Made by a program: the position numbers and the translations under genes. Shown here in pieces: positions 3,798 to 38,258 of a DNA stretch of 64,000 nt. The stretch is taken from assembly GCA_963971285.1 (NCBI GenBank), contig OZ020255.1, forward strand, positions 17,132,931 through 17,196,930. The letters are read 5' to 3'. How positions within the stretch are numbered: position 1 is the stretch's first letter; every line of letters begins with the position of its first letter. Origin of the DNA: Astropecten irregularis (lineage: Eukaryota; Echinodermata; Asteroidea; Paxillosida; Astropectinidae). The notes beneath the pieces were generated by a model. The model was not told the DNA's origin. It worked only from the letters and a program-made list of their open reading frames with translations, and searched no databases.

Positions 3798-4394
3798 GTT
3801 ACGACGGGACAGGGAGTTGGAATACACTCGACGACTCGAGCGTGTCTACGTCTCGATTCTCGAACCCTGGTAACATTTCCAGGGGTCGATTTCACGAAGC
3901 CCTTCGATCGATCGTAACCTGAGTTACGAGGGATAACCCATCGTATCCTACGTAGGGCTGCAGCCTGCAATGCATCGTATGCCCTATGATTGATAGTAAG
4001 TTACGATGACGGGAAGTGGGGATACACTTGACGGCTCGAGCGTGTCTCGAACCCGGGTAATATTTCCAGGGTTCGATTTCACGAAGCCCTACGATCGATC
4101 GTAACCTGAGTTACGAGGGATAACCCATAGTATCCTATGTAGGGCTGCAGCCTGCAATGCATCATAAGCCCTACGATTGATAATAAGTTACGATGACGGG
4201 GAGTGGGGATACACTTGACGGCTCGAGCATGTCTCGAACCCGGGTAATATTTCCAGGGGTCGATTTCACGAAGCCCTACGATCGATCGTAACTCGTGTTA
4301 CGAGGGATAACCCATCGTATCCTACCTAGGGCTGCAGTGCATTATAGGTCCTACGATTGGTAGTAAGTTGCGATGAGTTTGGTGAAATCGACAC
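3798..4394 (+). repeat. Tandem array of element C, three units of about 187 bp
   Basis: Element C copies start at 3882, 4069 and 4256. Between them lies a spacer of about 60 bp ('tggggatacacttgacggct' to 'aatatttccag'); a degenerate extra spacer precedes the first copy (from about 3798). Each unit contains the palindromic ACGATCGATCGTAAC block. Only the last unit ends with the normal right terminus (ggtgaaatcgacacc). The even spacing points to tandem duplication rather than three insertions. Confidence 0.8.
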
Positions 4395-15324: not shown

Positions 15325-15524
15325 NNNNNNNNNNNNNNNNNNNNNNNNNNNNNNNNNNNNNNNNNNNNNNNNNNNNNNNNNNNNNNNNNNNNNNNNNNNN
15401 NNNNNNNNNNNNNNNNNNNNNNNNNNNNNNNNNNNNNNNNNNNNNNNNNNNNNNNNNNNNNNNNNNNNNNNNNNNNNNNNNNNNNNNNNNNNNNNNNNNN
15501 NNNNNNNNNNNNNNNNNNNNNNNN
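15325..15524. other. Assembly gap, 200 N
   Basis: Exactly 200 unknown bases lie at the junction between duplication units A and B. A round number implies an estimated, not measured, gap. Confidence 0.99.
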
Positions 15525-21700: not shown

Positions 21701-23021
21701 TATAAATGGAGTTGCTATGTGATGAGCTTGAGACATTCATTTGGATTAATTGTTTGGGATTATTAGGTTATAAAACAGTGAGTATTTTTATCGGACTTTC
21801 AAGATGATTTGCATTTGTGACTTGGACTAGTAACACAGCTGGCAAATGGGCTGATTGCCCCCAATTATTGACGAGACAGCTAGCACGGTGTTATCATAAT
21901 GCTATAGTATACGGTGATATAGATATTTGCTGTGGTGTTACGCATGGCGTACCTAGTCACACCTTATAGTCCGCCTATGCTGTCTATCCGCGGCGTGCCC
22001 ACCGAACAGCCAGGGGACTTGGGAGGCTGATTCCTCTCTGATCCACCTTAATACAGACATCTGCATCTCAGACTTGTTACCTTGGTGACAAGATCAGTCT
22101 CAGAGAAAAAAAAAACCGTAGTGAGATTTCCTTGTTTTAAATGTGTGATGTGTTATCAGCGTGCGATCAATGCTGGATGTTCCTCGGATGTACCGCCAGG
22201 GAAGGGCAACGAACGCCAGCCGCGGTGATACCGGCAACCGCTCTCATATTCCGGCACTTCACCTGTCCAATTCCCGCTAACGAGGGCCCATGGGAGGCCC
22301 GAACAGGCCGGTCTCAGGCTCCACGTCTCGCCTTATACAATCTTTCCATCGGTCTCCTTCTTTTTTTGGTTTATGTTCTACCCCGAGCGAGAACGGTATA
22401 AAGTAAGCCGGTCGATGGCTGGTTACGGATATACCTAGAGCACACAGTCGCGGTATACCTCGTACAGTGTCGTGCTTTTTTTCCCCCATAGCCAATACTG
22501 CTTGGGTAATGACCGTTTGTGCTCTGTAAATACTCGCAGTTGCACGGGAAACTCGGTCGTTTTTTTTCCCCATCGATTGCCGGGAGCGTTAGTTTGCGAA
22601 TTGCTTTAATATCTTAAAGGGACACTGCGCAGAGTTCATCTCGGCCACGGCGCTATCTCGGATTGATGTATGGCAGTGACGTCATTAACCTTTTCGCTTT
22701 ACAGTTGTTTACGTTGCAACGTGGTCTCTTGTGTGTCCAACTAATTTGCATTTTGCCAATAATGCAATTATTATGTGTATATCTGTCCTTAGAACAAAAC
22801 CAAGTAAATGGCAGACATTATACAGTACACACGCTTGTCCATTGGAAACTGTTCTCAGGTTTATGACATACTTTTTATCACATTACAAGACACGGTATAC
22901 GTAGGCCAGCACGAAATGTGGTTTAATCCATGGTCTATTTCTATGAAACGATACATATAGAGGGTGCGAATGTACATGGCTCTTTATGGCGACCCTGCAT
23001 GAGATAAGACTATCAAAAATG
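21701..23021. other. No recognisable feature
   Basis: Intergenic; open frames at 22141-22401 (+) and 22277-22573 (-) overlap each other and show no motif. Confidence 0.4.
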
Positions 23022-23161
23022 GGGGTCGATTTCACCCAACTCATCGTAACTTACTATCAATTGTAGGACTTATGATGCATTGCAGCCCTACGTAGGATAC
23101 GATGGGTTATCCTCTGTAACCCGAGTTACGATCGATCATAAGGCTTCGTGAAATCGACCCC
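23022..23161 (-). mobile_element. Element C, inverted copy
   Basis: GGGGTCGATTTCACCCAACT at the left and 'cttcgtgaaatcgacccc' at the right. Reading the minus strand recovers the standard order of internal blocks (ATCGATCGTAAC-like, then 'gggctgcaatgcatcataag'). Confidence 0.85.
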
Positions 23162-23729: not shown

Positions 23730-24096
23730 ACATTCATACGAAGCTGTAGGGACATGCTGAAAAAATAAATTTGTACGAGCTATATGTCGTACGTACGAGT
23801 TGTTTGTCGTACGTACGAGATGTAAGTCGATCGTACGTACGACTTATATGTCAAACGTACGACTTATGAATCATAGCTCGTACGTACGATATATAAGTCG
23901 TACGTACGAGTTGTATGTCGCACGTACGATATGTAAGTCGTACGTACGAGTTGTATGTCGTACGTACGAGATGTAAGTCGTACGTACGACTTATATCTCG
24001 TACGTACGACATATAACTCGTACGTACGAGTTACGGTAGGTCAGAGAGAGGCAATATTTTTTTCAGCATGTCCCTAATACAGCTTCGTACATTCCT
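23730..24096. mobile_element. TIR element with an interior array of CGTACG palindromes
   Basis: Inverted ends: left ACGAAGCTGTAGGGACATGC then 'tgaaaaaa'; right 'tttttttcagcatgtccc' then 'taatacagcttcgt'. The flanks carry a direct repeat ACATTC on both sides, a plausible 6-bp target duplication. The interior (about 23772-24035) repeats a unit of about 20 bp, TCGTACGTACGA plus eight variable bases, about 13 times. No coding sequence. Confidence 0.8.
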
Positions 24097-26359: not shown

Positions 26360-26806
26360 ACGGCTTTCATGTCACTGATGGAATCCTGACTTACCCAATG
26401 TGATTTTCGTTGTGTAATGAAATAGTCTGTTGTCGTTTTTAAATGATCAGATAGCCTTGAGGCCATGCGAGTACCCTGACTGCATCCAATACAATTTACG
26501 TTGTATAGTATATATTTACGAAATAGTCTGTTGCCGTTTTTAAATGTTCGGTAGCCTTAACCCTTTGTGAGTACCAAGACTGCACCCAATGCAATTTACT
26601 GTGAATAATGAAATAGTATGTTGCCAGTTTAAATGATCCGATAGCCTTAAGGCTTTGCGAGTACCCTGACTGCACCAAATGTGATTTACATTGTGTAATG
26701 AAATAGTCTGTTTCCTCTTTCAAATTATCCATTAGCCTTAAGGCTATGCGAGTACCCTGACTGCATCCAATGCAATTTACTGTGAATAATGAAATAGTCT
26801 GCTGTA
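26360..26806 (+). repeat. 91-bp satellite, array 1 (about 5 units)
   Basis: The landmark 'gaaatagtctgt' recurs at 26419, 26520, 26610, 26700 and 26791, a period of 90-91 bp (101 for the first). Each unit also holds 'agccttaaggct' or a variant and 'gcgagtaccctgactgca'. The left flank 'aacggctttcatgtcactga' is shared with array 2. Confidence 0.9.
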
Positions 26807-28836: not shown

Positions 28837-29360
28837 ATTTCCTTCCTTCATTTGGTGCGCTGCCGTTGTTGTTGTTTTGGGAGGTGATGTTGGCTTGTGA
28901 ATCTACCGCAGGTTTTAACGGCTTTCATGTCACTGATGGAACCCTGACTACTTCCAATGCAATTTACATTGTGTAATGAAATAGTCTGTTGCCGTTTTTA
29001 AATGATCCGGTAGCCATAAGGCTTTGCGAGTACCCTGACTGCATCCAATGTGATTTACACTGTGTAATGAAATAGTCTGTTGCCGTTTTTAAATGATGCG
29101 GTAGCCTTAAGGCATTGCGAGTACCCTGACTGCGTCCAATGTGATTTACACTGTGTAATGAAATAGTCTGTTGCCGTTTTTAAATGATCCTGTAGCCTTA
29201 AGGCTTTGCGAGTACCCTGACTGCGTCCAATGTGATTTACATTGTGTAATGAAATAGTCTGTTGCCGTTTTTAGATGATCCGGTATTTCTTTCCTTCATT
29301 TTGTGCGCCGTTGTTGTTGTTGTTTGTGAGGTGATGTTGGCTTGTGAATATACCGCAGGC
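28837..29360 (+). repeat. 91-bp satellite array 2, bracketed by direct repeats of about 75 bp
   Basis: The landmark 'gaaatagtctgttgcc' recurs at 28977, 29068, 29159 and 29250, exactly 91 bp apart. On both sides lies a direct repeat of about 75 bp ('tttccttccttcatttggtg' to 'ggtgatgttggcttgtgaat') at 28837-28914 and 29287-29360. Units hold 'agccttaaggct' palindromes as in array 1. Confidence 0.9.
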
Positions 29361-37810: not shown

Positions 37811-38258
37811 CACCCTACACACTACTTCATGTATGCATACTACACCCTAAATTCTATATACAACATACAATCCTACATTATACGTCCTACACCCTACACC
37901 CTTCATTCCACACCCTACTTTCTACACCTTACAACCCTTTATTCTACACACTGTAAGTCTTCATTCTACACCCTACAACCCTACATTCTACACACTATAA
38001 CCCTTCATTCTACACCCTTCAACCCTACATTCTACATTCTGCACCCTACATTTTACTCCCAACATTCTACAACCTACATTCTACATCTAGTTCTACACCC
38101 TAGAACCCTACATTCTACACACTTCAACCCTTCCGTCTACACCTATACATTCTACATTCTACACCCTACATTCTACGACATACACTCTACAACCTACATT
38201 CTATACCCTACATTACAGCATTCTACACCCTATACACCTTACACCCTACATCCCTACA
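37811..38258 (+). repeat. CCCTACA/TTCTACA-rich minisatellite, about 450 bp
   Basis: Degenerate tandem mixture of 'caccctaca' and 'ttctaca' words, with a period near 7-8 bp and higher-order units of about 15 and 30 bp. It is read through as a 163-codon frame rich in Tyr, Thr, His, Ser and Leu, which is a product of the repeat. It resembles but does not equal the telomere repeat CCCTAA. Confidence 0.9.

Follow-up and report, generated by a model that had tools for sequence, protein, structure and literature searches.

A 64,000-nucleotide stretch of Astropecten irregularis DNA (hereafter the window) contains an array of short palindromes enclosed by inverted ends, raising the question of what kind of element this is and what purpose, if any, its palindromes serve. 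A first-pass annotation, made from the letters alone, had marked positions 23730-24096 as transposon-like, with inverted ends and a possible 6-bp target duplication, and this span proved to comprise an element and its flanking duplication. The element is a 353-bp non-autonomous DNA transposon, located at 23737-24089, that contains no gene. It starts with TACG and finishes with CGTA, and thus has TA..TA termini; the sequences of its two ends are TACGAAGCTGTAGGGACATGCTGAAAAAAT and TACGAAGCTGTATTAGGGACATGCTGAAAAAAAT, and its inverted repeats of ~32 bp begin TACGAAGCTG, with three bases absent from the left repeat. Its parts are as follows:

23731..23736, no strand: target duplication on the left side, CATTCA, identical to the right flank at 5/6 bases
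23737..23765, plus strand: terminal inverted repeat at the left, TACGAAGCTGTA(three-base gap)GGGACATGCTGAAAAAA, as aligned to the family end
23787..24029, no strand: array in which TCGTACGTACGA, exact or slightly altered, occurs 12 times between spacers of 8 bp (one of 12 and one of 15 bp), from motif count and TRF
23863..23877, plus strand: the long spacer CTTATGAATCATAGC (15 bp), a variant of the family 15-mer (GATATGATTCATAAG on the opposite strand), from spacer count
24030..24052, minus strand: linker from the array to the right end (GCCTCTCTCTGACCTA... on the minus strand), found at one end only in 30/36 copies
24058..24089, minus strand: right terminal inverted repeat, TACGAAGCTGTATTAGGGACATGCTGAAAAAA, a 32/32 match to the family end
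24090..24095, no strand: target duplication on the right side, CATTCC, from flank comparison

As the annotation had it, TCGTACGTACGA recurs about every 20 bp, and TRF delimits a 20-bp array of 12.4 copies at 23773-24030. The description of its units as perfect 12-bp palindromes is correct for 10 of the 12, the other two having one and two mismatches, and that of eight-base spacers is correct for nine of 11, the remaining two being 12 and 15 bp long. Outside the element, the 64-kb window has no copy of the 12-mer at ≤1 mismatch and three at two mismatches, and Rfam returned no match in the window. With long inverted repeats made up of internal tandem repeats, the element belongs to the foldback class, which is a structural description and not a superfamily. 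Other repeats in the window include a pair of tandem arrays, ~2 kb apart, with related units of 90/91 bp (26415-26801 and 28941-29285), a 187-bp unit in 2.8 copies (3858-4376), to which sequence near 23020-23160 and in locus L080 is similar (GGTCGATTTCACGAAGCCC...), and a CCTACAC-like heptamer array with higher periods of 22 and 44 bp (37886-38258); positions 15325-15524 are a run of N.

The genome as a whole (475.7 Mb in 168 contigs) was searched for further copies. The 12-mer is found at 1011 sites versus 46 for a reversed control pattern, and the 26-bp end at 190 sites with ≤1 mismatch (94 exact) versus none for its control, so that chance is excluded as the source of either abundance. A DNA search in which 40 of 222 candidates were scored gave 139 matching stretches, and both ends were present at 36 of 50 distinct loci read, revealing a dispersed family with common ends. 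TA is found at both ends in 30 of these 36 copies, and in these 30 (the six without TA at one end being left out of the flank count) the 6-bp flanks are exact duplicates in 13 and differ by at most one mismatch in 20, versus 1/870 and 15/870, respectively, when flanks of different copies were paired as a control. Exact flank matches peak at 6 bp, with 2 bp in two copies, 3 bp in one and 8 bp in none. The 6-bp target duplication is real at the level of the family and imperfect in the window copy. For four of the 36 copies, related sequence that has no element, with 69-91% identity, was recovered across the joined flanks, and the window family has been inserted into pre-existing sequence; the same search for six elements of other families found no such site (4/42 queries overall). 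These observations bear out the annotated transposon-like character of the element. The annotation had also named the outcome that would make it a lone minisatellite, namely the lack of any genomic copy with common ends. A plain minisatellite placed fortuitously between short inverted repeats would account for the 20-bp tandem array reported by TRF, but the 190 genomic end copies, the 6-bp duplications and the empty sites refute it and leave it a negligible probability.

Not every copy is complete, as seven of 20 window-type loci have no partner end and, when read inward, six of these seven run into other repeats or other sequence (L067 only via its match to L065). At L065 and L067 (C1:4785744 and C1:5436523), a window-type end and a short array continue into other sequence, and the two loci are ~90% alike across 1.6 kb and have their outer flank in common, apparently representing one insertion that was duplicated with its surroundings. 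COX1 searches of the same assembly gave a COX1-family match of 501 bits with a bacterial-looking, stop-free frame of 552 aa at G000:C131:32162-33484, suggesting a symbiont or contaminant contig, and a COX1 match with seven in-frame TGA codons on a chromosome-sized contig at G000:C25:9951047-9952018, probably mitochondrial DNA copied into the nucleus. In the mitochondrial contig (16,335 bp), a COX1 fragment has AAA at 3/3 Asn sites of a solved homologue and TGA at five Trp sites, which is the echinoderm/flatworm code; its close similarity to vertebrate COX1 favours an echinoderm over a flatworm. GFP-family matches were absent here and from the controls alike. With an amphioxus host thus set aside, the amphioxus 'mirage' minisatellites (PMC3087553) have no bearing on the array.

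Several superfamilies were considered for the window element. Tc1/mariner elements duplicate a TA target with no additional flank match, and were rejected as the 6-bp flanks beyond the terminal TA match in 13/30 copies. Elements of the hAT superfamily and the sea-urchin TU elements generate 8-bp duplications, and were rejected on the 0/30 copies with exact 8-bp flank matches. CACTA elements have the termini CACTA. Their target duplication is 3 bp according to the available portion of PMC2613891, and they were rejected on the window-family ends, TACGAAG..., and on a duplication of 6 bp and not 3. As far as the accessible parts of the two accounts go, IS3EU families have TA..TA termini and target duplications of usually 6 bp (PMC10045372), and fungal IS3EU elements have TAYGG ends, 6-bp duplications and inverted repeats >30 bp (PMC12730594). 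The ends and duplications of the window family agree with this description, and on these sequence features its identity as IS3EU is well supported. The annotation's remark that no known family has this layout therefore does not apply to the superfamily, which IS3EU fits by ends and duplication; it does apply to the layout itself, as in the literature searched on IS3EU/GingerRoot, transposon ends and echinoderms, part of it available as partial text, no subterminal palindrome array was recognised, although the arrangement may be known in Repbase reports or subscription papers. Within the literature searched, the 12-mer TCGTACGTACGA turned up in one paper, on a bacterial plasmid.

The Pfam family rva_4 (PF24764) matches this genome 61 times and 14 control genomes not at all, and from ends and duplications we infer that it is the IS3EU transposase. 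We read the best 30 of the 61 loci together with ~1.5 kb of flank in either direction. At 18 of them, representing 9 of 17 near-identity groups, the transposase is accompanied by arrays whose units are 21-22 bp long and show dyad symmetry, complete or partial. No such array was found within 1.5 kb at the other 12 loci (8/17 groups), and we count this absence against the explanation proposed below; L042, one of the 12, has a repeat of 31 bp that lacks dyad symmetry. The units of the array-bearing loci are:

L060: TCGTGCGCACGA plus GATAATATG
L059: TCGTTCGAACGA plus GATAATAAG
L053: TCGTAATTACGA or TCGAAATTACGA plus GATAATAAG
L057 and L058: TCACGTACGTACRTGA
L051 and L052: GGGCGTTATAACGCCC
L054: GGCGATATAACGC
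L043-L045: GCGGCCGC
L047/L056 and L048-L050/L055/L061: half-site unit types

In four families the core takes the form TCGT-NNNN-ACGA with ACGT, GCGC, TCGA or AATT at its centre, and elsewhere other palindromes are found. Tests of single units for 12-bp palindromy gave P values from 0.005 to 0.82 across the related families; some families therefore have perfect palindromes and others only weak ones, which likewise weighs against the proposed explanation. When eight relatives' transposases were aligned, the region before the first catalytic Asp contained no invariant H-H-C-C set, as expected of IS3EU and as an observation on the relatives only. A profile of these transposases matched no PDB sequence at E 0.1, and none of 40 pattern matches in viral contigs was confirmed as a relative.

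Three gene-bearing elements could be delimited at both ends. The L060 element is 1710 bp long with inverted repeats matching at 21/22 positions, the target duplication TTAAGC, an array at each end and an open frame of 312 aa (PF24764, E 5.6e-23). A second element, C16:8489675-8492924 (3250 bp, target duplication ATTTTG), has four exact cores on the left and 13 on the right, the nearest lying 40 bp from either end, with spacers CATAATTATC on the left and GATAATTATG on the right, and thus in mirror orientation; in the part translated, its transposase region has frames of 138 and 100 aa only. The third, C9:6015515-6023348 of the L048 family (7834 bp, target duplication AGTTTG), has mirror-oriented arrays inside both ends and two frames, of which one matches PF24764 and the other HECT. 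The latter, a second gene of an IS3EU-type element, is a 461-aa frame (L088:1005-2387, minus strand) whose match to the HECT ubiquitin-transferase domain has an E of 2.2e-9. At L048, L049 and L050, the transposase frame extends upstream through the entire 21-bp array, giving the repeating peptide LLIRFNG, as a 21-bp unit keeps the reading frame and has no stop codon in it. Further array-bearing groups were observed at one end only, and L058 and L059 had no partner end within ~6.4 kb.

Two of these other families also include miniatures consisting of ends and arrays. The L048-type end has 41 matches at ≤1 mismatch (control 0), among them three elements that have ends and arrays only and an exact target duplication:

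L092: 326 bp, target duplication TGGAGG
L093: 267 bp, target duplication GAATTC
L094: 257 bp, target duplication CCTTTC

L091 is a compound case with L048-type ends and no clear duplication. In the L060-like family, L102 is 275 bp long with the target duplication GAATTC and an array that is degenerate by eye. From L092-L094 and L102, the gene-less state with both arrays arose in other families of the clade as well.

Taken together, we think it likely that the window element is an internal-deletion derivative of an IS3EU-type transposon, and that its subterminal arrays are putative sites for a dimeric, element-encoded protein. The gene-bearing parent would have had the order inverted repeat, palindrome array, genes, mirrored array, inverted repeat, and deletion of the genes from between the arrays would have yielded the window element, in which the two arrays lie directly between the inverted repeats. 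Such a MITE-like element could then be mobilised by a DDE transposase of IS3EU type supplied in trans, with the arrays acting as subterminal cis sites. Since the palindromes are about two helical turns apart, lie inside both ends and are family-specific, a dimeric element-encoded binder is suggested: a parent-encoded protein, either a second product or the N-terminal region of the transposase, which in the relatives we take to be a helix-turn-helix, might bind each palindrome as a dimer, load along the ~two-turn pitch and help the ends to pair. Sites for a dimeric protein and amplified transposase sub-terminal sites, both offered by the first-pass annotation, appear to be its best options because transposase-bearing relatives carry similar arrays just inside their ends, and its interpretation overall is partly supported.

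The order of spacers within the arrays bears on this proposal. In 22 two-ended copies we counted 307 cores at ≤3 mismatches, of which 170 are perfect. Spacings (n=285) are 8 bp in 198 cases and 15 bp in 46, and five words, taken in either orientation, account for 137 of these 244 spacers (GATGTAAG, 37; GATATAAG, 31; GTTATATG, 27; GTTGTATG, 25; GATATGATTCATAAG, 17), each about equally frequent in both orientations. Four-spacer words are common to 44 of 528 copy pairs, versus a mean of 2.2 and a maximum of 6 in 300 shuffles, and this agreement in spacer order speaks for the proposed explanation. The linker that stands at one end only in most copies can be used to orient them, and in 28 copies oriented in this way several spacers flip between left and right, with mean relative positions for opposite orientations of 0.03 vs 0.86, 0.27 vs 0.74, 0.42 vs 0.84 and 0.46 vs 0.71. 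One spacer is weakly polar (0.35 vs 0.55) and another non-polar (0.55 vs 0.57); the little or no polarity of spacers B and D is a point against the proposed explanation. So is the finding that a three-spacer word together with its exact inverse occurs in 0/33 copies (0.7 expected), and mirror symmetry therefore holds on average across the family, not copy by copy. A perfect palindrome spanning the whole element was rejected, having failed in single copies.

The wear of the arrays allows a different view of their origin. Cores have 6.8% mismatches per base (n=33) and spacers 5.3% (n=64), the latter being a flattering figure, as each spacer was compared with its closest word. As cores are no better conserved than spacers, old copies give no sign of selection for binding, again to the detriment of our explanation. 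This result, together with the widely varying core count (1 to 23 per copy) and the local runs of a single spacer type at L011 and L030, would suit the main rival explanation, in which the arrays are a by-product: palindromes near the ends grow by slippage or unequal exchange, and the clade tolerates them. Independent families nevertheless place arrays of differing sequence ~40-60 bp inside their ends at a pitch of 20-22 bp, and the arrays are in mirror orientation in both families whose ends were compared in detail. Furthermore, the 12 array-bearing rows of a 20-transposase tree, from which 10 of the 30 were left out as near-copies or fragments, fall on one side of one branch with a support of 86/100, although the 1.5-kb flanks could hide arrays in array-less rows; the same split was recovered in 84% of 200 bootstrap trees, and 0/500 label shuffles were equally clustered. 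As the array trait tracks this branch, placement and pitch recur, and orientation is mirrored, we regard a by-product origin as unlikely.

The palindromes might also act through DNA structure and not sequence, with hairpins or cruciforms promoting excision, copying or the birth of miniatures. The element folds very strongly as single-stranded DNA (-127.9 kcal/mol versus -53.6 ± 3.8 for 100 shuffles, z -19.4), and its inverted arms reach 82 nt at 80% complementarity. Several related families with imperfect palindromes, however, retain the pitch and placement of their arrays, and we consider a purely structural role quite improbable.

We also searched for an autonomous element with the exact window end. 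None was found among the 100 listed of the 190 ends, the 30 transposase loci and the 54 locus records of the window family, the last being searched with the profile of relatives' transposases, which found nothing there. None of the 61 PF24764 matches has one of the 100 listed window-type ends within 20 kb, and neither the 12-mer nor a good match to the window end was found at any of the 30 transposase loci; we count both results against our explanation. Families with ends similar to the window type do encode PF24764. The L060-type end, TACGGAGCCCCTAAAGGGACATTCAA, is by eye the closest to the window type, TACGAAGCTGTATTAGGGACATGCTG, and lies ≤5 kb from 9/61 PF24764 matches, with L048-type ends near six.

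Only tentatively, and with somewhat more doubt than confidence, we suggest that within one IS3EU-type clade the arrays may be a fast-changing family address read by the dimeric region of each family's own transposase, such that families would be orthogonal and miniatures would parasitise their own parent only. IS3EU is sparsely treated in the literature searched, and related transposases that each lie beside their own palindromic array would form a natural series for how the DNA specificity of a transposase changes. They would also bear on why some transposons yield miniatures, as two families here preserve both the parent and its array-only miniature.

Parts of this layout are found in known systems, here compared from the available portions of the cited accounts. 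A Porphyromonas gingivalis MITE with a minisatellite likewise holds a tandem array in a short inverted-repeat element, but is bacterial (PMC4596501). CACTA elements have short repeated motifs inside both ends that are family-specific and retained in deletion derivatives, and in En/Spm the element-encoded TNPA binds subterminal repeats whose motifs diverge between families (PMC2613891). In contrast to these, the window family has a 6-bp duplication, palindromes on a 20-22-bp pitch and another type of transposase. Sea-urchin TU elements are of foldback type, with tandem repeats within long inverted repeats. The foldback-type elements Tetris and Galileo also have long inverted repeats composed of tandem repeats, which in Galileo are reported to hold additional transposase-binding sites (PMC4079207, citing Marzo et al. 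2013), but the repeat units of Tetris are ~220 bp (PMC4079207), the elements are from other superfamilies, and in the window element each unit is itself palindromic. The closest match is IS3EU/GingerRoot: the window element differs in being gene-less, and the accessible parts of the published accounts are silent on subterminal palindrome arrays, but it has in common with them the TA..TA termini, the usual 6-bp duplication and, with the fungal elements, inverted repeats of >30 bp (PMC10045372, PMC12730594), and the transposase encoded by its relatives in this genome is DDE integrase-like.
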